Source of the DNA: an uncultured Pelagibacteraceae bacterium
GTDB taxonomy: Bacteria; Pseudomonadota; Alphaproteobacteria; Pelagibacterales; Pelagibacteraceae
Direction: 5' to 3'
DNA length: 46,109 nt
Assembly (NCBI GenBank): GCA_902589395.1
Contig: CACIST010000006.1
Coordinates: 1-46,109, forward strand
How positions within the stretch are numbered: the stretch's first letter is position 1; every line of letters begins with the position of its first letter. The notes beneath the pieces are model-generated. The model searched no databases. It was not told the origin of the DNA and was given only the letters and a program-made list of their open reading frames with translations. Below, piece after piece: positions 8,423 through 45,864 of this stretch. Position numbers and translations under genes: made by a program.

Positions 8423-8439
8423 ATCACCTCAAATAATTA

Positions 8440-8901: not shown

Positions 8902-8935
8902 TTTTTTTTTAAGAAATTTTGTGTAATATATTTCA

Positions 8936-9839: not shown

Positions 9840-9905
9840 GGAGGATATGTAACAAATTATAGAGATTTTATTTTATCTTAATTTCGTATAACCTTTATAT
9901 TATTT

Positions 9906-10937: not shown

Positions 10938-10940
10938 ATT

Positions 10941-16983: not shown

Positions 16984-17096
16984 AATATATTATATTTATT
17001 GACTTTTTGAACAGGGGGTCTTCTTTTAACTTATTGTCATTCATTTCTCTCGCTGATACATTTACTTTATTAATCAACGAAAAGAGGGGAAAATCA
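16984..17096 (+). promoter_or_regulatory. control region ahead of the glycoside ABC importer operon
   Basis: The 113 bases hold two -35-like sequences, TTGACT at 16999-17004 and TTGTCA at 17034-17039. The second precedes GATACA at 17055-17060 with a 15-base spacer, shorter than ideal. The ribosome site AGAGGGG (about 17082-17088) precedes the chosen ATG at 17097. No stable hairpin or riboswitch-like fold was evident by eye. Confidence 0.35.
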
Positions 17097-18425: not shown

Positions 18426-18446
18426 TCTAGTAATTTAAATTTAAAT

Positions 18447-18479
18447 AAAAGCGGATAATATGTATTATCCGCTTTTTTT
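18447..18479 (+). terminator. terminator/attenuator hairpin abutting the permease start codon
   Basis: A perfect 12-bp stem (18448-18459 AAAGCGGATAAT pairs with 18464-18475, loop ATGT) is followed by T to 18479, and the permease ATG begins at 18480. The structure fits a rho-independent terminator. It leaves no room for a ribosome binding site, so it probably limits permease expression relative to the binding protein both by termination and by occluding initiation. Confidence 0.85.
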
Positions 18480-24125: not shown

Positions 24126-25793
24126 ACCCTCTGTTTCACCTTTTTCATTAATTCGAATTGAGTCAGCAGCTGGCACTTTTGGTAATCCTGGCATTGTCAT
24201 TATTGCACCACATACAACAACGATAAATTCTGCTCCAGATGACAGTCTTACTTCTCTTATTGGCAATACATGACCTGAAGGTGCTCCTTTTAGATTGGGG
24301 TCAGTAGAAAAACTATATTGAGTTTTTGCAATACAAATTGGTAATGATTGGTAACCTCTTTCTTCAAAAGCTTTTAATTGATCTCTAATTTTAGTATCAG
24401 CAACAACCTCACTTGCTCTATAAAGTTCCTTAGCTATTGTATCTATTTTCTTAAACAATGGTGTTTTATCATCGTATAAAAATTTAAAATTACTATCTTT
24501 TTCACATAATCCAACAACATCATTTGCTAAATCAATTGCACCTTCTCCACCTTTTTCCCAATGCTTTGAAATAGAGGCTTTAATACCTTTTTGTTCACAA
24601 AACCTGGCAACTTCATCAACTTCTTTATCAGTATCTAAAACAAAGTGGTTTATAGCTACTGTTACAGGTAATCCAAATTTTTGAATATTTTCTATATGTC
24701 TTTCTAAGTTAACCAATCCTTTTTTAACTGCATTAACATTTTCATTTTTTAATTCATCTTTTTTGACTCCACCATGCATCTTTAAAGCTCTTATAGTTGC
24801 AACAATCACAACACAACTTGGTTTTAATCCTGATTTTCTACATTTAATATCTAGAAATTTTTCTGCACCTAGATCAGCACCAAATCCAGCTTCTGTTACT
24901 ACATAATCAGAAAGTTTTAATGCTGTTTTAGTTGCTAAAACAGAATTACATCCATGAGCGATATTTGCAAATGGTCCACCATGAATGATTGCAGGATTAT
25001 TTTCCAGAGTTTGTGTTACGTTGGGTCTAATAGCATCTTTTAACAATACAGTCATTGGCCCATGTGCATTTAAATCTTTTGCATATATCGGTTTTTTATC
25101 TCTAGTATAAGCAACAGTAATGTTACCAATTCTATTTTCAAGATCATACAAATCATTTGATAGACAAAAGATTGCCATTATTTCTGAAGCAACTGTAATA
25201 TCAAAGCCATCCTCTCTCGGAAATCCATTTGCAACACCTCCAAGATTAATATTTATAGATCTTAAAGCTCGATCATTCATGTCGAGGACTCTTTTCCAAA
25301 CTATTCGTCTGACATCTATATTTAATTTGTTTCCCCAATATATATGGTTATCTATTAATGCAGATAAAAGATTATGTGCAGATGTGATTGCATGAAAGTC
25401 TCCAGTAAAATGAAGATTTATTTGTTCCATAGGAACTACTTGAGCATATCCACCACCAGCAGCTCCACCCTTCATACCAAAAGAGGGACCAAGACTAGGT
25501 TCTCTTAAACAAACAATAGATTTTTTACCTATTTTATTTAGTCCATCTGATAATCCTACAGAGGTTGTTGTCTTTCCTTCTCCTGCTGGTGTGGGCGTAA
25601 TTGCAGTTACTAATATTAATTTCCCATCCTTTTTTTCCTTAAATTTTTCAAGGTATTCAAGTTTGATTTTAGCTATGTGCCTACTTATTGGACTATATGC
25701 CTCAGCTTTATCAGGTACTCCCACACCATCCAAAATCTCTTGGATAGGTTTCATTTTTGCTTCACGAGCTATTTGGATATCTGATTTCGACAT
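24117..25793 (-). CDS. fhs: formate-tetrahydrofolate ligase
   Basis: The 558-residue protein is full length for Fhs/FtfL, which makes 10-formyl-THF from formate, ATP and THF, or runs in reverse to yield ATP. It has the P-loop [16 protein letters not shown] (about residues 66-81), [38 protein letters not shown], the THF-region [13 protein letters not shown] and the C-terminal [18 protein letters not shown]. In C1-oxidising marine bacteria it links formaldehyde-derived methylene-THF to formate and ATP. Its placement beside soxBDAG and in the same window as Tdm fits this. It is divergent from soxB, and its 3' end overlaps the amidotransferase gene. Confidence 0.96.
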
Positions 25794-25921: not shown

Positions 25922-27178
25922 ATGCAAAAATACTCAGTTTTTAGTCTAATTAAAAATGCATTCTCAGATCATCAGAACTGGGAAGTTGCCTGGAAAGACC
26001 CAACTCCTAAAAAGGAATATGATGTAATCATTATTGGTGGTGGAGGTCACGGTTTAGCAACTGCATACTACTTAGCTAAAGAGCACAATATTACAAATGT
26101 AGCCATCATCGAAAAAGGATGGATAGGTGGAGGTAATGTTGGAAGGAACACTACAATAATTAGATCAAATTATATGCATGATGATAATGCTTTGTTCAGT
26201 GAGTTTGGCATGGATCTATGGAGAAAGATGAGTCAGGATTTGAATTACAATGTTATGTTTTCTCCAAGAGGAATAATTAATCTTGCTCATTCAGATGCCC
26301 AAATGAATGCGTACTCTAGAAGAGGAAATTCAATGCGCCTAAATGGAATTGATGCAGTTTTATTAAATAGGGAAGAAGTTCAAAAACGAATTCCAATGGC
26401 AGATTTTTCAGACAATGTAAGATTTCCAATTTTTGGAGGATTGATGCAACCAAGTGCTGGAACTGCTAGACATGATGCCGTTGCTTGGGGATATGCAAGA
26501 CAAGCAGACTCGATGGGTGTTGATATAATTCAAAATTGTGAGGTTAAAGGATTTGATGTTACTAACGGAAAAATAGTTGGTGTAAGAACATCTAGAGGAG
26601 ATATCAAAGCAAAAAAAGTTGGTTTGTGTGTTGCAGGTAGTACTAATATTTTAGCAGAAATGTTAAATATGACATTACCAATTGAAACTCATCTCCTTCA
26701 AGCATGTGTGTCAGAACCCGTTAAGCCCTTGCTTGATCATGTTGTTACATTTGGTGCAGGTCACTTTTATTGCAGTCAATCAGATAAAGGAGAGATGGTT
26801 ATGGGCGGAGACTTGGACGGCTACAATAGTTACTCTCAAAGAGGAAATTTACCAACACTACAACATGTTTTAACAGAAGGTATTGCAATGTTTCCATTTC
26901 TAAGCAAATTGAAAATGTTAAGAACTTGGGGTGGAATTATGGACATGTCCATGGATGGTTCACCAATTATTGATAAAACACATATTGAAGGCTTATACTT
27001 AAATTGTGGCTGGTGTTATGGTGGATTTAAGGCTACCCCAGCTTCTGGGTGGACTTTTGCTCACACAATTGCACAAGACAGAGTTCATGAATTAAATGCA
27101 GGTTACAGTTTAAATAGATTTAATACTGGTGATTTAATTGATGAAAAAGGTCTTGGTACCAAAACTTGGATATCCTAA
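25922..27178 (+). CDS. soxB: sarcosine oxidase beta subunit (SoxB / MgdA-like)
   Basis: The 418-residue protein carries a Rossmann FAD site IIIGGGGHGLATAYYL (residues 36-51), the loop IGGGNVGRNTTIIRSNY and GTARHDAVAWGYAR, in which His184 corresponds to the residue that binds FMN covalently in heterotetrameric sarcosine oxidase. It oxidises the N-methyl group of sarcosine and passes the imine to the THF site. N-methylglutamate dehydrogenase uses the same subunit plan, so the substrate could be N-methylglutamate from the methylamine route encoded at the left end. It is the first gene of a four-gene operon, and soxD follows without a gap. No ribosome site is visible before its ATG. Confidence 0.9.
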   Translation: MQKYSVFSLIKNAFSDHQNWEVAWKDPTPKKEYDVIIIGGGGHGLATAYYLAKEHNITNVAIIEKGWIGGGNVGRNTTIIRSNYMHDDNALFSEFGMDLWRKMSQDLNYNVMFSPRGIINLAHSDAQMNAYSRRGNSMRLNGIDAVLLNREEVQKRIPMADFSDNVRFPIFGGLMQPSAGTARHDAVAWGYARQADSMGVDIIQNCEVKGFDVTNGKIVGVRTSRGDIKAKKVGLCVAGSTNILAEMLNMTLPIETHLLQACVSEPVKPLLDHVVTFGAGHFYCSQSDKGEMVMGGDLDGYNSYSQRGNLPTLQHVLTEGIAMFPFLSKLKMLRTWGGIMDMSMDGSPIIDKTHIEGLYLNCGWCYGGFKATPASGWTFAHTIAQDRVHELNAGYSLNRFNTGDLIDEKGLGTKTWIS

Positions 27179-27448
27179 ATGCTCTATATATTCTGTCCAC
27201 ATTGTGGATCAAGATCACAGAATGAGTTTGCTTATGGCGGAGATGCAACAGTAAAACGACCAGAGCTTAATAAGGAAATTAGTGATCAAGAGTGGAATAA
27301 TTTTGTTTATTTAAGAAAAAGTCCTAGAGGAAAACATCTAGAGTTATGGCATCATATATCTGGCTGCAGACAATGGATTAAAGTTGAAAGAGATACTTCA
27401 ACACACGAAATTTTTAAAACCTATAAAGCAGATGAACTAACTAAATAA
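27179..27448 (+). CDS. soxD: sarcosine oxidase delta subunit (zinc-binding)
   Basis: This 89-residue protein has the SoxD signature: CPHCGSRSQNEFAYGGDA at the N-terminus and, near residue 60, WHHISGCRQWIKVERDT. Cys6, Cys9, His59 and Cys63 supply the structural zinc site of the delta subunit, which packs against alpha and beta. It starts on the base after the soxB stop and ends in a TAATG overlap with soxA. Confidence 0.93.
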   Translation: MLYIFCPHCGSRSQNEFAYGGDATVKRPELNKEISDQEWNNFVYLRKSPRGKHLELWHHISGCRQWIKVERDTSTHEIFKTYKADELTK

Positions 27449-30444
27449 TGTCACAAGATTTTAGATTAGATAACATTGGAAAGGTAAATAGAAATAAAAA
27501 AATTTCTTTTACATTTAATAAAAAAAAATATTTTGGTTATGAAGGAGATACTATTGCTTCTGCTTTAATAGCAAATGGAGTGCATCTTGTTGGAAGGAGC
27601 TTTAAATATCATAGACCAAGAGGTTTCTTTGGAGTAGGTGTTGATGAACCTTATGCAATTTTACAGTTAGAAAGAAACAATGAGAGAGATCCTAATATTA
27701 GAGCTACAGAACAGGAGATTTTTGAGGGACTAGAGGTTAAAAGTGTAAACTGTTGGCCTAGTGTAAACTTTGATATTGGCGCAATAAATAATTTCTTAAA
27801 AATGTTTTTTCCAGCAGGGTTTTATTATAAAACTTTCATGTGGCCGCCAAGTTTCTGGTATAAAATTTATGAACCTTTTATTAGAATGGCAGCAGGTTTT
27901 GGAGAAGCATCAATCAAGCATGATAAAGAAAGATATGAACATAAATATGAATATTGTGATTTATTAATTACTGGATCAGGGCCTTCAGGTTTAGCCAGTG
28001 CTTACGCCGCAGCAAAAAATGGTGCTCGTGTAATTTTAGCTGAAGACAAACCAAGGTATGGAGGTAGCTTATTAACTAGTGATGTAAATATTGGAAATCA
28101 AACTGGTGCCGAATGGTCAGAGAAAATAATTACAGAGTTAAAGTCAATGTCAAATGTGATTGTAAAAAATAGATCACAAGTATTTGGTTATTATGATCAT
28201 AACATGCTGGTAATGTCAGAGCGAATAAGCGATCACTTGCCCAAAACCCAAAGATATTTACCTAAACAACGTTTGTGGTACATTAGAGCAAAAGAAGTGC
28301 TGATTTCATCAGGTTCAATTGAAAGGCCATTAGTATTTGGTAACAATGATACCCCGGGTGTAATGTTATCTTCAGCAGCTAAAGAATACATGAAGGTTTA
28401 TGGAGTTTTAGTTGGAAAAAAACCTTTGATATTTACAAATAATGACAGTGGATATGAAACAGCTATAGAATTCAAAAAAAATGGTGTAAATCCACTAATT
28501 TTAGATACTAGAAAAGATCCATCTTCAGACATTATTAGCGAAGCCAAAAATTTAGGAATTGAAATTAAATTTTCTCATGTAGTAGTGGCTGCTAAGGGAT
28601 ACAAAAAAGTCAAATCAGCGGATATTGCAAAAATATCTGATAATAAAAAAGATTTATCAAATATAGAAAATATTGAATGTGATTGTATTTGTGTGTCAGG
28701 GTTTTGGACACCATCAATTCACTTAGCATCTCAATCTGGAAATAAATCTGAATTTAATGAAAAAATAGATGCATTCATTCCAAAAAAATCTAAACAGAAA
28801 GAACATACAATTGGTTCAGCAAACGGTAAATTTACTTTAGAAGAAACCATTAAGGAAGCATTTGATAAAGGATATGAAATCTCAAATAAAATAACAGAAA
28901 ATAATAATAAAGTTTCTATTCCAACTGTAGTTGAAAAAAAATCTACAGAGCACGACAAGTTTTGGTGTGTTCCATTACCAAAAGGTAAATCGTATAAAAG
29001 ATTTTTAGATTTTCAAAATGATGTGGCTGTAACAGATATAGAGTTGGCATTAAGAGAGGGTTTTAGATCAATTGAACATGTAAAAAGATATACCACCCTT
29101 GGAATGGCAACAGACCAAGGTAAGACTAGTAATCTAAATGGTTTACAATTAGTTTCAGACATTGAAAATAAAGTTGTACCACAAGTTGGGCACACAACAT
29201 TTAGGCCACCTTATACACCTGTTTCAATAGGAGCAATTGTGGGAAGAGAAGTTGGCAAACATTCTAAACCGACAAGAAAATCACCAATGCACGAGTGGCA
29301 TGAAAAAAATAATGCAGTATTTGTTGATGCTGGAGTTTGGTTAAGACCAAGATACTACAAGCAAGGAAATGAAACACTATTTGAAGCCTCAAAAAGAGAA
29401 GCAAAAAATGTAAGAAAAAATGTAGGTGTATGTGATGTAACTACTTTAGGAAAAATAGATGTTAAAGGTCCTGATGCTGCAGAATTTTTAAATAGAGTTT
29501 ATACTAATGCATGGCTTAAGCTACCAGTTGGTAAAGCAAGATATGGAGTGATGCTAAGAGAAGATGGAATTGTAATGGATGATGGAACAACAACAAGAAT
29601 TTCTGAAAATCATTACCACATGACAACTACAACAGCTCAGGCAGCAAATGTTTTGTCTCATTTAGAATATTATTTGCAGTTAGTTTGGCCAGAATTAAAT
29701 GTTAATGTAGTCTCAACAACAGAGCAGTGGGCTGGTGCTGCAATAGCAGGCCCAAATTCAAGAGCATTGTTAATGAAACTATTTCCAAATACTGATGTAT
29801 CTAATGAAGGTCTACCATTTATGGGTTACAAAGAGGGCGATTTATTTGGTATTCCGGCAAAAATTTATAGAATTTCATTTTCAGGAGAACTTGCTTATGA
29901 AGTTAACGTGGAATCAGACTTCGGTAATTTCATGTGGGAAAAAATTATCGATATTGGTAAAGAATTTCAAATACAGCCATATGGAACTGAGGCCCTATCT
30001 ACTTTAAGGATAGAAATGGGCCACGTTGCTGGCTCTGAGCTTGATGGGAGAACAATTCCTCATGATGCATCGCTAGAAGGTTTAGTAAGTAAGAAAAAAG
30101 ACTTTATTGGTAAAAGATCTTTAAGCAGATCAGCTTTTACAAAACCAGATAGAGAAAAAATAGTAGGTGTTGTTCCATTAGACAAAACAACAAGTATTCC
30201 TGAAGGCTCATATATTGTTAAAGACCCGAACGCAAAGCTTCCAAACCCTAAATTAGGTCATGTCTCAGCATCATGTTGGAGTGTTGAGTATGATAATCCA
30301 TTCTCACTTGCGATAATCAAAGATGGTAAAAATATGATAGGGCAAAAGCTATTTGCTATGTCACCTTTAAAAAATAAAACTATTCCTGTGGAAATTGTTT
30401 CATCTCATTATGTTGATCCCGAGGGAAAGAGAGTAAGAGCATGA
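27448..30444 (+). CDS. soxA: sarcosine oxidase alpha subunit
   Basis: The 998-residue alpha subunit has three visible parts. An N-terminal domain (about residues 1-100, YEGDTIASALIANGVHLVGRSFKYHRPRG) is the ferredoxin-like fold without iron-sulfur ligands. A pyridine-nucleotide domain has LLITGSGPSGLASAYAAA near residue 171. A C-terminal GcvT-like THF domain starts near 610, with GVCDVTTLGKIDVKGPDA and SFSGELAYEVNV marks. It takes the methylene group from the beta subunit to form 5,10-methylene-THF. Like SoxB it could belong to N-methylglutamate dehydrogenase. The stop overlaps the soxG start (ATGA). Confidence 0.93.
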   Translation: MSQDFRLDNIGKVNRNKKISFTFNKKKYFGYEGDTIASALIANGVHLVGRSFKYHRPRGFFGVGVDEPYAILQLERNNERDPNIRATEQEIFEGLEVKSVNCWPSVNFDIGAINNFLKMFFPAGFYYKTFMWPPSFWYKIYEPFIRMAAGFGEASIKHDKERYEHKYEYCDLLITGSGPSGLASAYAAAKNGARVILAEDKPRYGGSLLTSDVNIGNQTGAEWSEKIITELKSMSNVIVKNRSQVFGYYDHNMLVMSERISDHLPKTQRYLPKQRLWYIRAKEVLISSGSIERPLVFGNNDTPGVMLSSAAKEYMKVYGVLVGKKPLIFTNNDSGYETAIEFKKNGVNPLILDTRKDPSSDIISEAKNLGIEIKFSHVVVAAKGYKKVKSADIAKISDNKKDLSNIENIECDCICVSGFWTPSIHLASQSGNKSEFNEKIDAFIPKKSKQKEHTIGSANGKFTLEETIKEAFDKGYEISNKITENNNKVSIPTVVEKKSTEHDKFWCVPLPKGKSYKRFLDFQNDVAVTDIELALREGFRSIEHVKRYTTLGMATDQGKTSNLNGLQLVSDIENKVVPQVGHTTFRPPYTPVSIGAIVGREVGKHSKPTRKSPMHEWHEKNNAVFVDAGVWLRPRYYKQGNETLFEASKREAKNVRKNVGVCDVTTLGKIDVKGPDAAEFLNRVYTNAWLKLPVGKARYGVMLREDGIVMDDGTTTRISENHYHMTTTTAQAANVLSHLEYYLQLVWPELNVNVVSTTEQWAGAAIAGPNSRALLMKLFPNTDVSNEGLPFMGYKEGDLFGIPAKIYRISFSGELAYEVNVESDFGNFMWEKIIDIGKEFQIQPYGTEALSTLRIEMGHVAGSELDGRTIPHDASLEGLVSKKKDFIGKRSLSRSAFTKPDREKIVGVVPLDKTTSIPEGSYIVKDPNAKLPNPKLGHVSASCWSVEYDNPFSLAIIKDGKNMIGQKLFAMSPLKNKTIPVEIVSSHYVDPEGKRVRA

Positions 30445-31028
30445 CAGTAATTTCTGCATTACAAAATGTTCATGTCAAGGGTTCATTTGGAAATTTTGAA
30501 AATAAATCTGAAAATGAATTATTAAAAATTAAAGAATTAAAAAATTTATTAATCGTTCAAGTAGTTCAGTATAGAAATTCTTCTATTAAAATTGATGATA
30601 TAAATTTTAATAAATTAAAATTTGTAAATCAGTCACAAACAGTAGTTTCAAATGAAAATGTAAGAGTGCTATGGAATTCACCAAATAATTGGCTTTTAAT
30701 TTCAAATAAAAAAGAATTGTTAAAAGAAATTTACAGCACTTTTAATGAAAATGATTTTGCTATTACGGACCTTTCGCACTCTAAAGCAACAATAGAATTA
30801 GAAGGACCTTACGTAAAAGAAGTTTTAAAAAAAGGATGTCCTTTTAATTTTAATATTTTAACAAAAAATATGAGCATTAACTCAGCTTATAATGGAATTT
30901 CATTTATAGTTGATATGGTTGAAAACGAACCGGAAAAAGTAAGAATTTTTTCTCTAAGAAGTTTTGGGGAATCTTTATACCATTCTATCACTGATGCTTC
31001 TTTAGAATTTGGCTATAAGTGTAATTAG
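30441..31028 (+). CDS. soxG: sarcosine oxidase gamma subunit
   Basis: The 195-residue protein has the weak but recognisable SoxG pattern: VRVLWNSPNNWLLIS near residue 72, ITDLSHSKATIELEGPYVKEVLKKGCPFN near 110-140 and a C-terminal SLRSFGESLYHSITDASLEFGYK. It is a shortened GcvT-fold subunit that completes the alpha-beta-gamma-delta enzyme. It overlaps soxA by four bases and ends three bases before the convergent transporter gene. Confidence 0.87.
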   Translation: MTVISALQNVHVKGSFGNFENKSENELLKIKELKNLLIVQVVQYRNSSIKIDDINFNKLKFVNQSQTVVSNENVRVLWNSPNNWLLISNKKELLKEIYSTFNENDFAITDLSHSKATIELEGPYVKEVLKKGCPFNFNILTKNMSINSAYNGISFIVDMVENEPEKVRIFSLRSFGESLYHSITDASLEFGYKCN

Positions 31029-35852: not shown

Positions 35853-36821
35853 ATGAACTATCGAATTGACAATCTTCAATATTGTAACTGGTCTAGAGAT
35901 ATTTTTCTAATCAATAGGGAAGCTGGATTAAATGCAGTACACGTTACTCTAGTATATCACGAAGATTATGACGAATTTTTGCAAAGAGTAAAAGAGTGGG
36001 ATAGATTTTTTGAAGAAAATTCAGACTTAATATTTTTAGGAAAAACATTTGAAGATATTACAAAAGCTCAATCAGACAATAAAACAGCAATTTTTTTCGG
36101 TTTTCAAAATTGTTCACCAATTGAGGATGACATCAATTTAATAGAGAAAGTTTATGAGCATGGTTGTAGATTTATGCAACTTACTTATAATAATCAATCT
36201 CTTCTAGCCACAGGATGTTATGAAAAAAATGATTCTGGAGTGACAAATTTTGGAAGAGAAGCAATTAAAGAGATGAACAGGGTAGGTATAGTTGTGGACA
36301 TGTCCCATTCAGCAGAGAAAAGTACTTTGGATGCAATAGAAATAAGTGAAAAACCAATTGCAATTACCCATGCTAATCCTTCTTTCTGGCATCAAGCTTT
36401 AAGAAATAAATCAGATTTCTTGTTAAAGAAACTTTCTGAAAGTGGAGGTATATTAGGTTTATCATTATATTCTCATCATTTGAAAGATGGAACAAATTGT
36501 AAATTAGAAAGCTTTTGTGAAATGGTTGCTAAAACTGCAGAAATAATGGAAGTAAAAAATATTGGTATTGGATCAGATCTATGTTTAAACCAACCTGACA
36601 GCGTTGTTGAATGGATGAGAAATGGAACTTGGTCTAAAAGTACATATTATGGAGAGGGAAATAAAAAAAAACCTGGATTCCCAGAACAACCTGAGTGGTT
36701 TTTGGATGCTAGAGGGTTTGATAATTTAGAAAGTGGACTAAAAAAAGTTGGTTTTAATAAGCAAGAAGTAGATGGAATTTTAGGAAATAATTGGTTTAAT
36801 TTTTATAAAGGAATTAATTAA
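35853..36821 (+). CDS. M19 (renal dipeptidase-like) protein with altered metal site
   Basis: The 322-residue protein aligns with peptidase M19/amidohydrolase-fold dipeptidases. It keeps GIVVDMSHSAEKST and IAITHANP (the two histidine ligands of the second metal), the following ALRNKSD arginine and the late aspartate in IGIGSDLCLN. The N-terminal H-x-D pair, normally in an I-D-G-H-N-D context, is replaced by IDNLQY, and the bridging Glu is replaced in FFGFQNCSP. A two-zinc dipeptidase mechanism is therefore unlikely as written. There is no signal peptide or lipid anchor, so it is cytoplasmic. Its stop overlaps the next start (TAATG at 36819-36823), tying it to the unknown genes that follow. Confidence 0.8.
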   Translation: MNYRIDNLQYCNWSRDIFLINREAGLNAVHVTLVYHEDYDEFLQRVKEWDRFFEENSDLIFLGKTFEDITKAQSDNKTAIFFGFQNCSPIEDDINLIEKVYEHGCRFMQLTYNNQSLLATGCYEKNDSGVTNFGREAIKEMNRVGIVVDMSHSAEKSTLDAIEISEKPIAITHANPSFWHQALRNKSDFLLKKLSESGGILGLSLYSHHLKDGTNCKLESFCEMVAKTAEIMEVKNIGIGSDLCLNQPDSVVEWMRNGTWSKSTYYGEGNKKKPGFPEQPEWFLDARGFDNLESGLKKVGFNKQEVDGILGNNWFNFYKGIN

Positions 36822-38476
36822 TGGAAATAAGATTAAGAGATCCAAAATTTTTGATGAAACTATCTAAATTGGGATCTTTTCATCAATCAAAATTATCATT
36901 TCTAAGATCTTTTTTATCTGAATTTAAAGATTGGAAATATAGCCGAGATTTATTTCAACTAAATGACAAAGGACATGGGAGAGCAGTTTATTCTTTTACA
37001 AAAGATAAAAGAACATATTCTCTCATTTGTTTTGCTAATGAAATCAAAGATGACGAGAGATCAGATAGAGTAATAGCCACCAAGTGGGATGCTGCTTTTA
37101 CCTTATTTGATGGAATTCCATCAAAAGAAGACATAGATAGACTTAACAATAATGTTCCAAAACAAGAGGTGGGAAGACTTTCGTTTAAGGAATTAACGTT
37201 ATCAAGAGCCAACAAGTCAGTAAGAGTTTTCGAACATGTAGTTGACAGTTTATCAAATGGAGAGCAACCTAATAAAGAAATTTTATCAAAGGTTGGATAT
37301 TTATATAGAACAACAGCAGTTTATGGATCAGGAAAATTTGGTTTAGCGGACAGGTTTAGAATTAAAAATAGAGAGGAAATTAGAGGACCTTTTAGATTAG
37401 AAATGATGTTAGTTTATCTCGTTAGACAATTTACCTTTGATCAGGTTAATCATATTGCAAAAAATAAAAATCCAAAATTAGCAGTAGAATTAGATCCTGC
37501 AATTAGCAGGAACTTAGGAATAGGAAATTCCACTGGCCTTGGTATGGCTCCTTTTATTGTTAATCATCCTACTTTGTTGAATAATTGGATACATGCGAGA
37601 GAAACTGCTTTGAAACAAATAAGAGAAATAGAACAAGTTTCAAAAAATGAGATTGATATTTTTTATAATTGCCTAATTAAATCTTTAAAGAATATAACCA
37701 GTTGGAATACTGACAGCAAATTTCAAAAAGAAAAAATCAAAAGTTTAATTGAAGATTTAAAAAAGTTTATAAAATTTATGAAAGAAGATTTTAAATTTGA
37801 AAATTCATATCAATTTAATCAAATTTACAACTGGTCAGAGGAAAATTTAAATGATGAATGTATAGAATATATTGTATCTATGATGATGGAACCATATGAT
37901 GACATAGTTAATCCATTAATTACGCAAATGAGTTCTGATGAGGAAGAATATTTTAATATTCCTGTTGATAGAACCATAGAGGATTTAAGAAACATATTAG
38001 AAAATAAATATTCCGAAATACTTAAGATTGATTTTTTAAAAGATGAAAATAATCAAAACTTTTGGTTTATATCAAAAAATAAAGAAGAACCTAGAATAGG
38101 GGATAGATATATTGATGAAGGATCTGACTTGGAACAGCCATTAGCAATAGCAAGAGACATTAATAAACTTTACGAGGCTGTATTTTCCAAAAAAAATAGT
38201 TCTAAAATTGGAAAATTTCTAAAAGATAATAATCATTTAAGACACGTTGTTAGAAGAGCCTTTATTGCTGAAAAGTTTCCTTATTCAGAAATCCAAGACA
38301 ATACAATTGGGTCCAAACTAGTTCCAATTGATATGTTAAGATTAAAATTATCATTTTTTGGAGCAATAAAGTTTGATCCTAGATCAGATAAATGGTTGCG
38401 TATTTGCATGTTCCAAGGAGCACCTTTGCCTTCAGAATTGGGAAATTTTGATGATAAATGGATTTATAAATCATAA
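36821..38476 (+). CDS. conserved-looking protein of unknown function (551 aa)
   Basis: This soluble 551-residue protein has no signal peptide. Notable segments are FQLNDKGHGRAVYSF (about residues 46-60), YLYRTTAVYGSGKFGLADRF near 165-184, GPFRLEMMLVYLVRQFTFDQ near 190, and a motif-like GIGNSTGLGMAPFIVNHP near 227-244. A long acidic and lysine-rich helical middle (about 265-400) follows, then a C-terminal region with HLRHVVRRAF and DPRSDKWLRICMFQGAPLP. The glycine-rich and aromatic motifs look like those of an enzyme core, but I do not recognise the family. It is coupled to the M19-like gene by TAATG and lies four bases before the DUF3726-like gene. Confidence 0.75.
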   Translation: MEIRLRDPKFLMKLSKLGSFHQSKLSFLRSFLSEFKDWKYSRDLFQLNDKGHGRAVYSFTKDKRTYSLICFANEIKDDERSDRVIATKWDAAFTLFDGIPSKEDIDRLNNNVPKQEVGRLSFKELTLSRANKSVRVFEHVVDSLSNGEQPNKEILSKVGYLYRTTAVYGSGKFGLADRFRIKNREEIRGPFRLEMMLVYLVRQFTFDQVNHIAKNKNPKLAVELDPAISRNLGIGNSTGLGMAPFIVNHPTLLNNWIHARETALKQIREIEQVSKNEIDIFYNCLIKSLKNITSWNTDSKFQKEKIKSLIEDLKKFIKFMKEDFKFENSYQFNQIYNWSEENLNDECIEYIVSMMMEPYDDIVNPLITQMSSDEEEYFNIPVDRTIEDLRNILENKYSEILKIDFLKDENNQNFWFISKNKEEPRIGDRYIDEGSDLEQPLAIARDINKLYEAVFSKKNSSKIGKFLKDNNHLRHVVRRAFIAEKFPYSEIQDNTIGSKLVPIDMLRLKLSFFGAIKFDPRSDKWLRICMFQGAPLPSELGNFDDKWIYKS

Positions 38477-38480
38477 ATAA

Positions 38481-39089
38481 ATGAGAAGCTTTAGTGAAAT
38501 AGAAGTAACTACAAAAAAAGCATCTAAAGCTATTGGTTTTTCTTGGGGAATATCAGAGGAGGTTGGAAAAAATATACGATTACTAGAAATGTTTGGACTA
38601 CCAGGTCTTAAAAATTTAAACCAATACTACAAAATTTATAAAATCAGTAATTTTGAAAATATAGATGAAATATCAGTCTCAAATACTCCAAAGACTTTTT
38701 ATTGTCCTATATTATCTGGATTAAATTTTTTTGATCAATCTTCATCAATATCTAAATTCATTGAAATTGAAATAAATAAGATTGCTTTTCCACTTATATT
38801 TTTATCATTTGTAAGCAGAACTTCAGAAATTATTGGTAAGAGAATTTTTTTAAAGATGGATGATAAAGAATTTTTATTTAATTTTAATGAGTCTATTTAT
38901 TCAAACTATCTAACAGGAGACGTATTGGAAAAATCAGATAAAATTAATTTAAAATTTTTAGATAATAAGAACAGTTTCACTGAAGATGATTGGTCTGAAA
39001 TTTATAATTTATCACTAAAAACTTACGTCGATGAAAGTGATAAATCGAGGGAACGAACAGCAGGAGCTGGATTAACAGATAATGACTAA
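38481..39089 (+). CDS. DUF3726-like protein of unknown function
   Basis: The 202-residue protein has the N-terminal pattern I associate with DUF3726: SFSEIEVTTKKASKAIGFSWGISEEVGKNIRLLEMFGLPGL (residues 3-43), i.e. S-x-x-E-I-x...K-A...G-x-x-W-G-x-x-E-E-x-G. The rest is mixed alpha/beta without recognisable active-site residues. No biochemical role is known to me. Its 3' end overlaps the small CxxC gene by eight bases. Confidence 0.65.
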   Translation: MRSFSEIEVTTKKASKAIGFSWGISEEVGKNIRLLEMFGLPGLKNLNQYYKIYKISNFENIDEISVSNTPKTFYCPILSGLNFFDQSSSISKFIEIEINKIAFPLIFLSFVSRTSEIIGKRIFLKMDDKEFLFNFNESIYSNYLTGDVLEKSDKINLKFLDNKNSFTEDDWSEIYNLSLKTYVDESDKSRERTAGAGLTDND

Positions 39090-39249
39090 AGAATATGATG
39101 CAGAATTAAATAAGAATTTAGAAGCAGATTTAAATGATATATGTGAAGAGTGTAAAAAAGAAGATGAAAGTGTAACTCAAAATTTATTTCTTACTGGTTT
39201 TAAAATATGCAAATCTTGTAGAACATCTAAAACTGTTTTTCCTTTTTAG
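39082..39249 (+). CDS. 55-residue CxxC/CxxC zinc-ribbon-like protein
   Basis: A short open frame from ATG 39082 to TAG 39247-39249 encodes 55 residues with two knuckles, CEEC (residues 21-24) and CKSC (43-46), as expected for one four-cysteine zinc site. The N-terminus is acidic and helical, and the end is TVFPF. It overlaps the preceding DUF3726-like gene by eight bases and ends four bases inside the convergent Yip1-like gene. Its cysteine pattern and coupling make it a convincing small gene. It may be a structural or regulatory subunit of the preceding proteins, by inference. Confidence 0.72.
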   Translation: MTKEYDAELNKNLEADLNDICEECKKEDESVTQNLFLTGFKICKSCRTSKTVFPF

Positions 39250-39829: not shown

Positions 39830-41188
39830 TTAACCTTTTACAACTTCTCTTGTATTGGCGTTGTAAGATTCTTTAAAAGGTATATCTACCACTACTGCAT
39901 CAACAGGTTTGCCTGGAGTTTCAGAATATTTTTCAGGCAAGTGTATCTTAAACTTAGTTCCGACTTTTCCTTTTGGAAACCCATTAGCGTTTAATGTTCC
40001 ATCAAACGGAACATAACCCATGGCTATATTTTGTTTTTTTTCAGGGTGATACCAAGGGGAAGTAACAAAACCTATTGGTTCTCCACCACCTTCATCGGAA
40101 ATCAACCAAAAATCAGGCGCGTACTCTTCAATTGGTTTTCCACCTAATTCTAGACCAACTAATTGAAGTTTATATGGTTTATGACCTGCTTTTAAATCAG
40201 CTTTCATTTTTTCAAGAGCTTTTTTACCTACATAGTCTGACTTCTTATCCCATTCTCCTTTTCCAGATAACGAAACTTGATAACCTAAGTTACATTGAAA
40301 AGGATTATGTTGATTGTCCATATCTTGACCCCAAGAAAGAATTCCAGCTTGAATTCTTCTATGGTGCGCGGGCGCAATAACCATAAGACTATGTTTTTTT
40401 CCTGCTTCAAGAACAGCATTCCACATATCCTCAGCATATAAAGTACATTCTCTTAAATAAATTTCATATCCAGCTTCACCTGAAAATCCTGACTGAGATA
40501 TCACACAACTTCTTCCACCGATTTTAGCTTCTGCTAAACCGTAGAATGGCATATTATCAAAATCTACTTGATCTCCACATAAATCCTTCATTAATGCTTT
40601 AGATTTTGGCCCTTGTATTTGAACTGGACTTACATCTATTTCATCAATTTCTACATTAAATCTCTCGTCAGCATTTACACCTTGTAAATAAAGACCTATA
40701 TCACTATCCGATAAACTGAACCAAAATTCATCTTTTGATATTCTTAAAAGAATAGGATCATTTAATACTCCGCCATACGCATTACAAAGAATTACATATC
40801 TAGCTCTCATTGGAGAAATCTTTGTAGCATCTCTTGTAATTACATAATCAACAAATTTTTCTGCATCTGGACCTTTTACTCTAATTTGTCTTTCAACAGC
40901 TACGTTCCACATTGTTACATGATTAACGATCGCATCATATTCCACCATTGCACCACCATCTTCTGGTTTTACATATCCTCTAGGATGATAAATACGATTG
41001 TATACAGTTGCTCTCCAACAGCCTGCTTTCATTGACAAATGCCAATAGGGTGATTTTCTTACACGTGTTGAAATTAACATTTCAACTTTTGTTGGTCCGC
41101 TTTGTCTTAAATTATAAGGCACTTTTCTATCAGATTGATCTACTGATGTTACGTGTCTTAACTTACTATAGTCAAATTCATTAGACAT
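39830..41188 (-). CDS. GcvT-fold THF-dependent demethylase (DmdA-like)
   Basis: The 452-residue protein has GcvT/DmdA features: VEYDAIVNHVTMWNVAVERQIRVKGPDAEKF (about residues 82-112), GGVLNDPILLRI, the LSDSDIGLYLQG segment, VQIQGPKSKALM, SQSGFSGEAGYEIYL and the late RIQAGILSWGQDMD. The WNVAVERQ stretch is close to DmdA. At about 80 residues longer than the Pelagibacter DmdA I remember, with an extra N-terminal 40 residues, it is probably a paralogue with a different methyl donor. It is coupled to a MetF-like gene by an eight-base overlap, which suggests methyl transfer to THF followed by oxidation of 5-methyl-THF. The neighbouring betaine-type importer suggests an onium-type osmolyte as donor. 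Confidence 0.82.
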   Translation of the reverse strand: MSNEFDYSKLRHVTSVDQSDRKVPYNLRQSGPTKVEMLISTRVRKSPYWHLSMKAGCWRATVYNRIYHPRGYVKPEDGGAMVEYDAIVNHVTMWNVAVERQIRVKGPDAEKFVDYVITRDATKISPMRARYVILCNAYGGVLNDPILLRISKDEFWFSLSDSDIGLYLQGVNADERFNVEIDEIDVSPVQIQGPKSKALMKDLCGDQVDFDNMPFYGLAEAKIGGRSCVISQSGFSGEAGYEIYLRECTLYAEDMWNAVLEAGKKHSLMVIAPAHHRRIQAGILSWGQDMDNQHNPFQCNLGYQVSLSGKGEWDKKSDYVGKKALEKMKADLKAGHKPYKLQLVGLELGGKPIEEYAPDFWLISDEGGGEPIGFVTSPWYHPEKKQNIAMGYVPFDGTLNANGFPKGKVGTKFKIHLPEKYSETPGKPVDAVVVDIPFKESYNANTREVVKG

Positions 41189-41909
41189 AGTTATTCTCCT
41201 TCAACCACTTGTTTGTTTCCTTCAAGCCGCCGAATGTATAAATGTGAAAATAATCAGTATGCGATTTAACTTTCCCAATTAGATCATTAGGGTCTTTAGG
41301 TTTCAATAAATCTAAAGCCTTACTAAAATTAGATTTAAGAAAATTAATGGAATTTTTTGCACCAACAATATTTGCAAACTTTATCAAGCTTGAAATTTTC
41401 ATGGGCCCAGTTATTCCAACATGAACTGGTATCGTTTGTTTAGAAATGAAATCAACGATAGGCTGAGAATCTAATAACCATTGGGTTACTATATAATCAG
41501 CATAAGGCTTTTTATCTATCATTGCTTTTTCTAATTCTGAATCGGATATATCAGGACTACCCTCTGGATGTCCAGCAATTCCAATCTTAATTCCATCAAA
41601 TAATCCTGTCTCTAATATTTGATAAGAGCTGTCAAATTTTCCAACAGGGTCTCTACTGCCACCTATAGCCAATATCTGTTTTACACCTAAATCTTTACAT
41701 CTCGAGATGTAATCTTTAAGCTCTTCTTCATTATTTATCGATCTAGCTGGGAAGTGAGGCACTGGATTAAATCCTTTCTTAACCAAATCACCAGACTTAT
41801 CTGCAGTCTCCTTATAATCTCCTCCAGGTAGCATAGTCACATAAACATCTTTAACTTCAGGTAAAGTATCAAGATCTGTGTGAGGTCCAATTTCTAATGA
41901 AAAATTCAT
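41181..41909 (-). CDS. methylenetetrahydrofolate reductase-like protein (short)
   Basis: At 242 residues it is shorter than MetF (about 290) but follows the MTHFR barrel: FSLEIGPHTDLDTLP at the start, VYVTMLPGGDYKETADKSGDLVKKGFNPVPHFPAR (about residues 23-57), ILAIGGSRDPVGKF, GIKIGIAGHPEGSPD (about 100-115) and VHVGITGPMKISSLIKFA. The GGSRDP and AGHPEGHP-like motifs are the flavin/folate contacts. In this operon it probably oxidises 5-methyl-THF made by the DmdA-like enzyme to methylene-THF. It overlaps that gene by eight bases. Confidence 0.78.
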   Translation of the reverse strand: MNFSLEIGPHTDLDTLPEVKDVYVTMLPGGDYKETADKSGDLVKKGFNPVPHFPARSINNEEELKDYISRCKDLGVKQILAIGGSRDPVGKFDSSYQILETGLFDGIKIGIAGHPEGSPDISDSELEKAMIDKKPYADYIVTQWLLDSQPIVDFISKQTIPVHVGITGPMKISSLIKFANIVGAKNSINFLKSNFSKALDLLKPKDPNDLIGKVKSHTDYFHIYTFGGLKETNKWLKENNYV

Positions 41910-41971: not shown

Positions 41972-42865
41972 CTATTTTTTCTGACCTCTATGCTTTTGAA
42001 TTCTCTCACCATATTTCTGAGTAACCCTATCAAAGATAATTGCTAAAGCTACTATTGCTAGACCGTTCATCATTCCAAGCGCTAAATACTGATTTGAAAT
42101 AGCTTGTAATATAGGTACCCCAAGACCTTTAACTCCAATCATTGACGCAATTACCACCATAGCCAAAGCCATCATTATTGTTTGGTTTATTCCTGCAAAT
42201 ATTGTGGGCAAGGATAATGGAATTTGCACAGATTTTAGCTTTTGCATTGGAGTTGCGCCAAATGCTTCGCTTGCCTCAAGAGTTTCTTTATCGACCTCCC
42301 TTATTCCAAGGTTTGTTAGTCTAACAACTGGTGGTAGGGCATATATACATACTGCTAATAAGCCAGGGACTTTTCCTATGCCTAAAAGCATAATTATTGG
42401 AATAAGATAAACAAAACTTGGTATTGTTTGCATCATATCCAATACAGGTAGAATAGTTTTTTCTGCTCTTCTTGATTTGGACATTAATACTCCGATTGGT
42501 ATTCCAACAACAATACATACAAGTGTAGAAACAGAAATTATGGCAACTGTTGCCATACAATTTTTCCACATCCCAAAATAACCTATAATTATAAAACAAA
42601 TTACAGTTCCTATCACCAGCTTAATACTTCTCGAACCAATCCAAGCGAGTAAAGCAAATGCCCCTATAACTAAAGGCCAAGGACTATTTACTAATAACTT
42701 TTCTAACCAAATTAAAAAATAGAGTAGTGGATCAAAAAAACTTTCTATTCCATCACCATAAGCTCTTGAAAACTCTTTAAAACTTAAATCAATACCTTTT
42801 TTCAGCTCTCTAAGAGCTGTTCTATCCATTACTGGTATTGAATTTAAGAAATCCATTTTTTTCAA
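41972..42865 (-). CDS. proW: OpuA/ProW-type ABC importer permease
   Basis: The 297-residue protein is a single-domain betaine-type permease with about six to seven helices. Landmarks are ISVSTLVCIVVGIPIGVLMSKSRRAEK, LDMMQTIPSFVYLIPIIMLLGIGKVPG and the coupling loop EASEAFGATPMQKLKSVQIPLSLP (about 202-225). The start may be TTG 42865 or ATG 42856. Both lie directly behind a hairpin and lack a ribosome site. No ATPase gene accompanies it; the TmoW-like ATPase 32 kb away, or another ATPase, would have to serve. Confidence 0.88.
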   Translation of the reverse strand: MKKMDFLNSIPVMDRTALRELKKGIDLSFKEFSRAYGDGIESFFDPLLYFLIWLEKLLVNSPWPLVIGAFALLAWIGSRSIKLVIGTVICFIIIGYFGMWKNCMATVAIISVSTLVCIVVGIPIGVLMSKSRRAEKTILPVLDMMQTIPSFVYLIPIIMLLGIGKVPGLLAVCIYALPPVVRLTNLGIREVDKETLEASEAFGATPMQKLKSVQIPLSLPTIFAGINQTIMMALAMVVIASMIGVKGLGVPILQAISNQYLALGMMNGLAIVALAIIFDRVTQKYGERIQKHRGQKK

Positions 42866-42905: not shown

Positions 42906-43916
42906 TTATAGTGCTTTTTTGATTTTTTTAGCAGCTGAACTTGTTACCCATTTAGTCCAAACGTCTTCTTGTGTTTTTAAGAATTCGATAGCCGCATCTG
43001 CACCTTCAGCTTGGTTTTCACCCATCCAAACTAACATTCCATTCATAACTGGACCTGGGTAAGTTCTTTTCTCAAGATAATCCATACCTTCTTTTCCAGC
43101 AGTTTTTTTATAGTTGTCAGTTGCAACACTATAAACTTCAGATTTAACCCATGAAGATTTCAAAGGATTAGCACATTCTTGCTCTGGTTTTGATAAACAG
43201 TTATCCCAGTTATCTTTACCAGCGTACTCACCCATATCTACAGCTTGCATATTGTATTTTCCAATAATAGCTGTTGGAGACCAGTAGTAACCAAACCAGT
43301 TTTCACCTCTTTCGGCAGCTTTAGCAATTGAACCATCAAGACCTGCTGCTGATCCAGTTTCTACTATAGCCCAACCTTTCGCTTCCATTCCCCAAGCTCT
43401 AAAATGATTTCTGTTACTTAGTTCACAGTTCCATCCTGGAGGACAGATATGAAATCCACCTTTTGATGGATCCTCTGGATGTGGAAATAGATCAGGTCTT
43501 TCTAAAATTGCATCTGCAGTTGTAAGTTCTGGATGCTTCTCTAAAGTTGCTGGCAATACCCACCAACCTTCACCTAAACCAGTAATTGGTGCTTTATTTA
43601 TTGAGTGAAGTTTTCCTTCAGCTACAGCAGCTTCTAACTCAACTTTTGCTGCATTTGCCCAAAACTCAGGAGCTATATCCGGCTCACCTTTTTCTTGCAT
43701 TGATGTAAAAGTAGGCATAGTTGAACCTGGTACAAGCTCAACATTACATCCATAACCTTCTTCTAATATAACTTTATCTACTTCAGCCATAAAATTTGCA
43801 GAAGCCCAGTTCATATTAGCAATAGTAATGTCTCCACATTTTGCATTAGCAACATTACCGTACGATGTAACTCCTAAAACAAATAATGCAGAAAGCAATA
43901 TTCTTTTTAATTTCAT
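42906..43916 (-). CDS. proX: betaine-type ABC importer, periplasmic binding protein
   Basis: The 336-residue precursor has a signal peptide (MKLKRILLSALFVLGVTSYG, cleavage after ANA near residue 25) and an OpuAC body. Features are ITIANMNWASANFMAEVDKVILEEGYG, EFWANA, GLGEGWWVLP, ICPPGWNC, GENWFGYYWSPTAIIGKY and a C-terminal MLVWMGEN. The many Trp/Tyr residues suit a cage for a quaternary ammonium or sulfonium ligand, and Cys pairs suggest disulfides. It differs clearly from tmoX in sequence and so probably in ligand. A ribosome site (AGGAGA) precedes the ATG. Confidence 0.88.
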   Translation of the reverse strand: MKLKRILLSALFVLGVTSYGNVANAKCGDITIANMNWASANFMAEVDKVILEEGYGCNVELVPGSTMPTFTSMQEKGEPDIAPEFWANAAKVELEAAVAEGKLHSINKAPITGLGEGWWVLPATLEKHPELTTADAILERPDLFPHPEDPSKGGFHICPPGWNCELSNRNHFRAWGMEAKGWAIVETGSAAGLDGSIAKAAERGENWFGYYWSPTAIIGKYNMQAVDMGEYAGKDNWDNCLSKPEQECANPLKSSWVKSEVYSVATDNYKKTAGKEGMDYLEKRTYPGPVMNGMLVWMGENQAEGADAAIEFLKTQEDVWTKWVTSSAAKKIKKAL

Positions 43917-44059: not shown

Positions 44060-44689
44060 ATGGCTCAAAAAGACGTTGGCAACAAAGTACCCATTTACAA
44101 ACTTAAAAAAACAAAAGAGGTTATGGAATTCTATGACGAATGGGGACTAAATAATAAATATGACAAAGACATGGTTGATTGGAATTATACAGGTCCTAAG
44201 GAAACAGCAGAAGTGTTTGCAAAATATCAAAAAAATAGAAATGTAAAAATTTATGATGCAGGATGTGGCACGGGCTTAGTAGGTTTAGAGCTTAAAAAGT
44301 ATGGTTTTTCAGACTTTTATGGTGCTGATTTATCACAAAAACTTTTAGATTTAGTTCCAAATAATCTTTACAAAAAATTAGATAAGGTTGATTTGAATAA
44401 ACCAGTAAATGAAAAAGATAATGAATATGATGCATTAATGTGTGTAGGAACATTTACTTTTGGTCATGTGAAACCACCAGCTCTTGATGAATTTATTCGG
44501 ATTACAAAAAATAATGGTCTTATTTGTTTTACAATAAATGAGGGCATTCACGAAGAGTATGGTTTTGACAAGAAAATTCAAAAATTAATTGAAGAAAAAA
44601 AGTGGAAAGAACTAGAATTTTTTAAGTCAGATTATATAGCAAGCAAAGATGTTAATGCTTGGTTGGGTCTATATGAAGTGACTAAATAA
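44060..44689 (+). CDS. class I SAM-dependent methyltransferase
   Basis: The 209-residue protein has the SAM-binding motif I IYDAGCGTGLVGLELKKYG (about residues 67-85), motif II GADLSQKLLD near 91, and motif IV/post regions YDALMCVGTFTFGHVKPPALDEFIRITKNNGLICFT. The N-terminal VMEFYDEWG...YDKDMVDWNYTGP region resembles Williams-Beuren-type small-molecule methyltransferases. Substrate unknown. It overlaps the Rieske oxygenase gene (TAATG), so the two probably act in one pathway. Confidence 0.85.
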   Translation: MAQKDVGNKVPIYKLKKTKEVMEFYDEWGLNNKYDKDMVDWNYTGPKETAEVFAKYQKNRNVKIYDAGCGTGLVGLELKKYGFSDFYGADLSQKLLDLVPNNLYKKLDKVDLNKPVNEKDNEYDALMCVGTFTFGHVKPPALDEFIRITKNNGLICFTINEGIHEEYGFDKKIQKLIEEKKWKELEFFKSDYIASKDVNAWLGLYEVTK

Positions 44690-45864
44690 TGTCAGAAATT
44701 TATAAGATTATAGATAAGAAAAAATTAGAGGTTGTTAAGAAACCCATTAGTAAAGCCCATGGTCTACCAAATGAGTGTTACATAAATAAAGAATATACAT
44801 TAATAGAAAGAAAAAAACTTTTTGAAGATAAATGGACAGTAATTGGCACGGCAAGCTCATTGCCAAAAGCAGGAGATGTAAAGCCATTTGATCTCCTAGG
44901 TCTACCATTGCTAATAGTTAGAAATAAAAAAAATAAAATCAAAGTTTTTCATAATGTATGTAGTCATAGAGGTGTAAAACTTGTAGATAAACCTGGTAAC
45001 ATAAGAAATGTAATCAGATGCCCTTACCATTCCTGGTCTTATACTGTGGATGGAGAATTAATAGCTACTCCTCATATTGGTGGCATGAACAAACACCAAA
45101 GCTCAAAATTTGATAAATCAAAAAACAATCTTAAAGAAATAAAATCTTATGTGTGGCTTGATTTAATAATTGTAAATGTTGGTAACAATCAAATTCCTTT
45201 TAAAGAATATATCAAACCCTTAGACGAAAGATGGTCTAAATTTTGGATCATTAAAGATAGAGAGTTAATAAATCATGCTAATGACTTTGGATACTTTAAA
45301 TTAAAAGCAAAATGTAATTGGAAATTTGCAATTGAGAATTACTGTGAGAGTTATCATTTGCCTTGGGTACATCCTGGGCTAAATGAATATTCCAAAATAA
45401 ATGATCATTATCATATTCAAGGTCTACCCAATCGATTTGCTGGACAAGGAACAAAAAATTATAATCCTAAATTTAAAGGAAAAGAAAAATTCCCAAGCTT
45501 TCCTAATTGGCCAAAAAATAAAGAGAATATTGCAGAGTATGTTGCTCTCTTTCCTAATGTTATGTTAGGCATTCATAAGGATCATTATTATGCATATTGG
45601 TTAGAGCCAATAGATCATGAAAATACTTTAGAACATATGGAGATATATTATGTTGGTGAAAAAGCTGCTAAATCTCTAAAATTTAAGTCATTAAGAAAAC
45701 AAAACCATAAATTGTGGGAGGGCATTCAGAAAGAAGATGTAGATATCATTCAACGGATGCAAATAGGCCGCAATTCTAATGCATATAATGGTGGAAATTT
45801 TTCTCCTGATATGGATAATCCAACTCATCAATTTCATAAGTGGGTTGCTGAAAATATTGTATAG
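44689..45864 (+). CDS. Rieske non-heme iron oxygenase, alpha subunit
   Basis: The 391-residue protein has the Rieske cluster ligands Cys91-x-His93 (CSHRG) and Cys111-x-x-His114 (CPYHSW). The mononuclear iron site follows in ENYCESYHLPWVHPGL (about residues 218-233), with a late acidic ligand in EDVDIIQRMQIGR. The layout fits ring-hydroxylating-type oxygenases that act on quaternary amines (GbcA, CntA, choline or stachydrine oxygenases) as well as aromatic substrates. The nearby betaine-type importer favours an N-methylated substrate, by inference. No reductase gene is visible before the window ends. Confidence 0.88.
   Translation: MSEIYKIIDKKKLEVVKKPISKAHGLPNECYINKEYTLIERKKLFEDKWTVIGTASSLPKAGDVKPFDLLGLPLLIVRNKKNKIKVFHNVCSHRGVKLVDKPGNIRNVIRCPYHSWSYTVDGELIATPHIGGMNKHQSSKFDKSKNNLKEIKSYVWLDLIIVNVGNNQIPFKEYIKPLDERWSKFWIIKDRELINHANDFGYFKLKAKCNWKFAIENYCESYHLPWVHPGLNEYSKINDHYHIQGLPNRFAGQGTKNYNPKFKGKEKFPSFPNWPKNKENIAEYVALFPNVMLGIHKDHYYAYWLEPIDHENTLEHMEIYYVGEKAAKSLKFKSLRKQNHKLWEGIQKEDVDIIQRMQIGRNSNAYNGGNFSPDMDNPTHQFHKWVAENIV

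Follow-up and report, generated by a model that had tools for sequence, protein, structure and literature searches.

What is the function of four tightly packed genes in the genome of an uncultured SAR11 bacterium of the Pelagibacteraceae? The genes lie on the + strand at positions 35853-39249 of a 46,109-nucleotide stretch of DNA (assembly GCA_902589395.1, contig CACIST010000006.1), the whole of which is called the window here. They encode an altered member of the M19 family (322 aa, 35853-36821), a conserved orphan protein of 551 aa termed P551 (36821-38476), a protein of the DUF3726 family (202 aa, 38481-39089), and a four-cysteine protein of 55 aa termed C55 (39082-39249). A preliminary description had seen in them a single operon, probably of one pathway, and the best candidate in the window for an undescribed enzyme system. 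The comparisons reported here suggest that the operon is likely to be the SAR11 form of the operon for catabolism of homarine (N-methylpicolinate), a nitrogen-containing salt-balance compound of plankton, reduced to the altered M19 protein, P551, and DUF3726 with a small SAR11-specific four-cysteine protein added. The operon is real and conserved, and it is very probably the SAR11 member of a now-published pathway and not a new system.

The layout of the operon is the first indication of a shared function. A check of open reading frames (ORFs) re-found all four with their coordinates and junctions: the M19 and P551 genes have one base in common (position 36821) in a TAATG junction, the P551 and DUF3726 genes are separated by 4 bases (38477-38480), and the DUF3726 and C55 genes overlap by 8 bases (39082-39089), because the codons of a C-terminal DND tail in DUF3726 contain the C55 start codon. 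Within SAR11, 80 loci were compared, the best-matching ones among at least 584 P551 matches from named SAR11 records, and the order M19-P551-DUF3726, the strand, and the tight spacing were kept in all 80. This layout is thus not due to chance, and the proposal of one tightly packed and conserved unit, probably serving a single pathway, holds for these three genes. The relatives are Pelagibacteraceae, with P551 identities of up to 98%. P551 was matched in 41 of 61 genomes, the window's own included, a match in genome G016 (E 5e-4) being at chance level. It is present in 11 of the 18 relatives that are at least 90% complete, so it is common but not universal, and the earlier expectation that the operon is unlikely to be dispensable is not borne out.

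The same association is found outside SAR11. A search for DUF3726 gave 20 positive genomes among 249 proteobacterial ones, the window's own included, and 18 of the 20 other loci (from 17 genomes) were opened to about 7 kb on each side, one being cut by a contig end. Both M19 and P551 lie within these limits in 18 of 18 loci, with M19 on the opposite strand in one of them (L059). With 32 M19 genes across the roughly 71 Mb of these 17 genomes (sizes rounded), about 0.12 of the 18 loci would be expected to include one by chance. The two unopened loci (G126 and G198) each have P551 with an adjoining DUF3726 ORF. In the converse search, P551 was found in 29 of 398 genomes (own included), with 33 matches, of which 30 had their loci examined (own included). 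In all 30, P551 has a DUF3726-family ORF on its own strand no more than 1.5 kb away, and M19 is found within that distance in 15/30; a transporter gene stands between P551 and M19 in at least some of the remaining 15. Distant relatives of P551 (25-31% identity; L174, L175, L176, and L179) were also met. Sets of IclR, P551, DUF, M19, and transporter genes occur in Variovorax, on pSymB of S. meliloti, and in Alloyangia, and this distant IclR-type module probably acts on another substrate. Furthest afield, a haloarchaeal plasmid of Natrinema carries an aldehyde dehydrogenase (ALDH), P551, a DUF3726 relative, and a BCCT transporter, and a search of this locus for M19 gave no match. Scattered homologues had been named in the preliminary description as what would speak against a common system; the neighbourhood proved to be conserved, so that the idea of one system was not refuted.

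The surroundings of the module in other bacteria point to betaine catabolism. Five named clusters outside SAR11 were read from annotated plasmid records. Those of Phaeobacter porticola, whose plasmid is apparently among the 18 opened loci, and of Ruegeria sp. TM1040 combine soxBDAG, a helix-turn-helix regulator, LysR, ALDH, a membrane dipeptidase, BCCT, P551, DUF3726, and Ldh. The Shinella cluster has sox beta, delta, and alpha genes, a GlxA-type regulator, LysR, ALDH, dipeptidase, P551, DUF3726, Ldh, a ProU-type betaine ABC importer, and purU; that of Aminobacter is much like it, with no sox gene in view. Pseudomonas MPC6 has RidA, BCCT, dipeptidase, ALDH, LysR, P551, and DUF3726, with no Ldh or sox in view. 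All five therefore contain LysR, ALDH, M19, a BCCT or ProU-type importer, P551, and DUF3726, and four of them contain Ldh. Genes of the sox (mgd) type and a GlxA/AraC-type regulator adjoin the module in three (Ruegeria, Phaeobacter, and Shinella).

In a sister family, which belongs to the same order of bacteria as the window, the gene order M19-P551-DUF3726 is again kept in 7/7 regions, one of which runs off its contig. ALDH adjoins the module in five of these, Ldh in two (L197 and L200; 50-53% identical to the Phaeobacter Ldh), and soxB/soxA/soxG in one, from genome G050. In the latter, ALDH, Ldh (50%), DUF3726-P551-M19, and the sox genes (SoxB 80%) are contiguous. A relative of aspartyl/asparaginyl beta-hydroxylases (199-209 aa) is also encoded near the sister-family module at L197 5845-6474 and L203 7829-8428; the L203 copy matches PF05118 (E 1.8e-7), and the L197 copy is alike by eye.

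About 5 kb from the operon, the window itself carries soxB (25922-27178), soxA (27448-30444), and soxG (30441-31028) on the + strand, an operon of the soxBDAG/mgdABCD type and a candidate N-methylglutamate dehydrogenase, in which soxD should be located in the gap 27178-27448. A 2026 paper (PMC13390433) reports that Mgd is involved in homarine catabolism and places tmaR (AraC type) upstream of mgdABCD. Six plasmid SoxB regions with good matches were opened, taken from a spread of 40 among 1332 records. Three of them (Aminobacter niigataensis, Rhizobium sp. NLR16a, and R. ruizarguesonis) have soxB beside glnT/gmaS and three mgs-type genes; in the remaining regions, it lies by dmm, folD, and purU (Paracoccus), by hutG and purU (Pseudosulfitobacter), or by purU only (Novosphingobium). 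The Pseudosulfitobacter plasmid (L216, 1863-12028) also encodes a formimidoylglutamate deiminase next to hutG (N-formylglutamate deformylase), near its soxBDAG/mgd-like operon with purU. In a SoxB tree of 16 rows, unrooted and with no reference enzyme, a 99/99 branch sets apart a group in which the three P551-adjacent SoxB proteins mix with the three mgs-adjacent ones and with those of Paracoccus and Pseudosulfitobacter. Because they group with SoxB from gmaS-mgs clusters, the most plausible identity of the P551-adjacent "sarcosine oxidases" is MgdABCD. The SoxB near the operon is 58-61% identical to the Shinella copy, compared with 53% for the second SAR11 paralogue, in five of five genomes of the SAR11 family f1, and by drawn branch lengths the window SoxB is also closer than this paralogue to the SoxB of gmaS-mgs clusters. 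Judged by these sequences, the window soxBAG genes may be of the mgd type. Which of the two SAR11 sox operons is the N-methylglutamate dehydrogenase was left undecided by Sun et al. 2011, as far as the available text goes (PMC3160333). The comparison of sequences favours, short of proof, the copy near the operon.

How could these genes act on homarine? Ferrer-Gonzalez and colleagues, in a work cited in PMC13390433 (2026, Nat Microbiol 11:1531-1546), are reported to have described a homarine operon homABCDER with N-methylglutamate as an intermediate; a literature search for this operon name found nothing. We presume that LysR is R and that the five structural genes (ALDH, M19, P551, DUF3726, and Ldh) fit homABCDER, the assignment of the letters being a guess. 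The likeness to the homarine pathway (hom and mgd) is that mgd, betaine importers, and LysR occur together in a conserved cluster. The step from homarine (C7) to N-methylglutamate (C6) requires the loss of one ring carbon, which fits a formate-releasing hydrolase or deformylase; purU or formate-tetrahydrofolate ligase (FTHFS) genes are found nearby. In the proposed route, a betaine importer would take up homarine, and P551 with DUF3726 would activate the pyridinium ring, leading to cleavage of the C5-C6 bond and an N-formyl-N-methyl aldehyde. The aldehyde dehydrogenase would then form the second carboxylate, the altered M19 protein would hydrolyse the N-formyl group so that ring C6 leaves as formate, and the Ldh-family reductase would saturate the imine or enamine to give N-methylglutamate. 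Mgd, as N-methylglutamate dehydrogenase, is the proposed downstream step. We infer each reaction of P551, DUF3726, the altered M19 protein, ALDH, and Ldh from carbon balance and gene content; the ring attack is given to P551 and DUF3726 because the other proteins are excluded. Compared with homarine-type clusters, the f1 operon keeps only the altered M19 gene, P551, and DUF3726, lacks LysR, BCCT, ALDH, and Ldh, and adds the four-cysteine protein. Neither ALDH nor Ldh is present in the window's operon, and LysR is absent from the annotated window genes around it, a statement based on annotation and not on a genome-wide search. As f1 has no clear orthologues of the cluster ALDH and Ldh, SAR11 either uses other dehydrogenases or follows a different route.

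Several points weigh against homarine as the substrate. The module alone does not define it, because the distant IclR form probably has another one; the gene-for-gene identity of the operon with homABCDER is a presumption; and neither a cofactor motif nor a catalytic motif was recognised in P551. In the SoxB tree, the window SoxB and the P551-adjacent SoxB of G050 form a SAR11 clade of their own (100/99), outside the mgd-type set, and the mgd-type clade includes the Paracoccus and Pseudosulfitobacter copies, with no P551 cluster in view. Genome G037 has P551, but its SoxB is the more distant copy alone (51%). The cluster ALDH has no clear orthologue in five f1 genomes (identity at most 35%; at most 36% in the sister family), and the cluster Ldh likewise has none in f1 (identity up to 36%, and 27-28% in the genome of the window). 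The sister-family ALDH shares only 33-36% identity with the Phaeobacter cluster ALDH and is closer (48%) to another Phaeobacter ALDH. Finally, a search for BCCT in the window's own genome, which is about 80% complete, gave no match.

These points leave some room for other substrates. The alternative that survives best, although fairly improbable in our estimate, is that the operon degrades a different N-methyl betaine (trigonelline, proline betaine, or an undescribed one) by import, attack on the ring or a C-N bond, deformylation, and N-demethylation. Such a substrate would agree with the occurrence of the module beside BCCT, ProU-type, and polyamine-type ABC importers and in the distant IclR form, and with the lack in f1 of dehydrogenases clearly orthologous to the linked ALDH and Ldh. 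The trigonelline (tgn) pathway, in which a pair of flavin monooxygenases attacks the ring and cleavage yields N-formyl-N-methyl intermediates, with ALDH and hydrolases taking part, resembles the route proposed here in these intermediates, ALDH, and hydrolases. However, no flavin monooxygenase pair is annotated in the opened named clusters. Moreover, mgd-type genes are found in three of the five close named clusters and in G050, N-methylglutamate is homarine minus one carbon, and Mgd is tied to homarine in the available text of PMC13390433; all three favour homarine over another betaine.

A second alternative, with a still smaller chance of being right, involves the genes that adjoin the operon. 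A DmdA-like aminomethyltransferase (AMT; below the DmdA cut-off) and a MetF-like protein are encoded at 39830-41909 on the - strand, a pair that resembles SAR11_1265/1264, and the operon could work with them to pass the N-methyl group directly to tetrahydrofolate (THF), before or instead of Mgd. The AMT gene lies within 3 kb on the opposite strand in 71 of the 80 SAR11 loci, MetF is no further than 5 kb away in 68 of the 80, and demethylation of an -onium centre to methyl-THF would require MetF. SAR11_1265 is, in the available text of PMC3160333, an AMT of unknown substrate that adjoins metF (SAR11_1264). In contrast, the pair stands on the strand opposite to the operon, no AMT or MetF match was found in the seven sister-family regions searched, and 6/80 loci give as their sole AMT match a distant homologue from another part of the flank, while 2/80 give none.

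The M19 protein itself was compared with its family. It matches Pfam M19 (PF01244) with E 1.7e-67 over profile positions 43-316 of 319, so that the N-terminal part of the profile is left unmatched, and in place of H-x-D, the N-terminal motif of the M19 family, it has D-x-L. In a comparison with a classical M19 protein (3id7), its Q85 aligns with the metal-ligand Glu. This Gln is found in 79 of 80 SAR11 rows (one unaligned) and in all 26 other loci with a match, and H152, H173, R184, and D242 are kept in 80/80 and 26/26; three of the 80 rows are unaligned at the first four positions and one at Q85, and 27 non-SAR11 loci were examined, of which L042 and L170 are apparently the same plasmid. The same D-x-L start and the same Gln-for-Glu exchange occur in the M19-subfamily amidohydrolase of PDB 2i5g (phmmer 1.5e-50 over 5-317), and this subfamily and the SAR11 protein both differ from the classical two-metal site. 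The loss of part of the active site noted earlier is thus real in that family residues are gone, and it is a fixed subfamily feature, not decay. The protein is probably a fixed, altered, one-metal hydrolase, for which the role of an amidase or deformylase is proposed. It is not a classical dipeptidase, because D-x-L and Gln replace HxD and the bridging Glu. The idea that it is an ordinary dipeptidase of an operon that recycles peptides or amides without a betaine link, for which the M19 family name speaks, is highly improbable: it was rejected on these site residues, and the betaine-catabolic neighbourhoods also speak against it.

P551, the candidate ring-attacking catalytic partner, had been described as a protein of no recognised family, and this was upheld throughout. 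Neither Pfam nor NCBIfam gave it a match better than chance; 16 members searched one by one gave zero matches in either, and their profile found nothing significant among PDB sequences (best E 0.17). In 24 aligned sequences, including members of about 25% identity and archaeal ones, 42 columns are invariant, many of them polar (R83, D90, R119, R129, N131, R135, R163, H249, E261, E423, and R425). A structural model was made from 74 SAR11 sequences, namely 73 of the 80 loci and the window; L119 (stop in translation), L061, L063, L064, L082, L083, and L084 were left out. This alignment-based model reached pLDDT 75.8 and pTM 0.81, with low confidence at residues 494-530 and in several conserved loops, compared with pLDDT 35 for a single-sequence model, which was not usable. 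Against PDB folds, it gave no Foldseek match at E of 0.001 or below, and its best VIA Z was 4.4 across 85 residues. A Bet v 1/START/AHSA1-like fold was rejected as too weak (Z about 2-2.6, Foldseek E 5-8), and a hidden kinship of P551 with Ldh_2 was tested and not found (E 0.6).

DUF3726, the partner of P551, is assigned by PF12525 (E 1.3e-19, 70.3 bits against a cut-off of 22.1), in agreement with the earlier suggestion of a DUF3726-like third protein, and a literature search found no paper on this family. It is homologous to the DUF protein of the distant clusters (hhalign E 1.7e-12). Weak signals link these proteins to the N-terminus of Ldh_2 (PF02615), a possible ancestor of DUF3726: one archaeal DUF relative matches Ldh_2 with E 4.8e-9, below the cut-off, two others give E 0.005 and 0.025, and hhalign gave E 1.3e-4 (45 columns, probability 54%) and E 0.0021 (probability 13%). 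The protein ends in a GAGLxDND tail, GAGLTDND at 39063-39089 of the window, which recurs across Proteobacteria: the terminal DND is present in 79 of 79 complete f1 ORFs, 6 of 6 from f2, and 29 of 51 others without the window's own locus (L148), this last group being redundant (52 ORFs, 30 ending in DND, with L148 counted).

C55 was correctly called as an ORF, and its inclusion in a four-gene unit does not extend beyond the SAR11 family. It has no Pfam or NCBIfam match above chance. Counted as the best tblastn match anywhere in the fetched flank, it is found in 75 of the 80 SAR11 loci (gene order and adjacency were recounted separately), and CxxC-18-CxxC is present with identical spacing in all 75. 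Among the other five, L074 ends inside DUF3726, so that the C55 region is not visible, and four have no match. No tblastn match was obtained in the seven sister-family regions (one of which ends too early) or in the 27 non-SAR11 loci, the short query giving low sensitivity. C55 is a lineage-bound addition of the SAR11 family, accessory and outside the conserved core.

Other genes of the window fit a setting of methylated compounds. FTHFS (24117-25793, - strand; NF010030, 916 bits against a cut-off of 652) is a possible formate sink for the operon. An ABC permease (41972-42865) and an OpuAC betaine-binding protein (42906-43916), assigned by Pfam and both on the - strand, show identities of 51% and 36-37%, respectively, to ABC genes in the Aminobacter and Shinella clusters, and may possibly form the importer of the operon's substrate. 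The alpha subunit of a Rieske oxygenase (44689-45864) is 43-45% identical to a Rieske gene near the Phaeobacter and Pseudomonas MPC6 clusters. Much of the window appears to be a region of methylated-compound catabolism, because it encodes a trimethylamine N-oxide demethylase (4928-7267; 1097 bits, just below the cut-off of 1100), a trimethylamine monooxygenase (14584-15912; 740 bits, cut-off 675), and a betaine-type ABC transporter (7414-13094). Genes of a sugar-type ABC transporter followed by a mannosylglycerate-hydrolase-like glycosidase (PF22422) at 17007-22190 suggest the use of glycosylglycerate osmolytes. The window also has counterparts of the SAR11 methylovory region in the available text of Sun et al. 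2011 (PMC3160333): FTHFS, glutamine amidotransferase, an iron-type alcohol dehydrogenase, soxB2D2A2G2, a DmdA-like AMT, and metF. In the main text of that paper, the words "dipeptidase" and "hypothetical" are absent.

Altogether, the operon can hardly be called an undescribed system, since the homarine pathway very probably covers these families, the gene-for-gene identity with hom being presumed. What makes it interesting is the pair of unclassified core proteins, together with the losses and additions in SAR11. The unexplained chemistry is narrowed to P551 and DUF3726, with the altered M19 hydrolase as a likely deformylase, and the result bears on the question of the two sox operons that the available text of Sun et al. 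2011 (PMC3160333) left undecided. Tentatively, and with somewhat more doubt than belief, it can be proposed that P551 and DUF3726 are an unclassified two-protein enzyme of no matched fold, which would dearomatise or open the N-methylpyridinium ring without a recognisable cofactor domain, and that P551, DUF3726, and the altered M19 protein are a general module for the opening of betaine rings. If this is true, SAR11, roseobacters, rhizobia, and pseudomonads would reuse the triad in combination with different importers and finishing enzymes, as would at least one haloarchaeal plasmid with P551 and DUF only.

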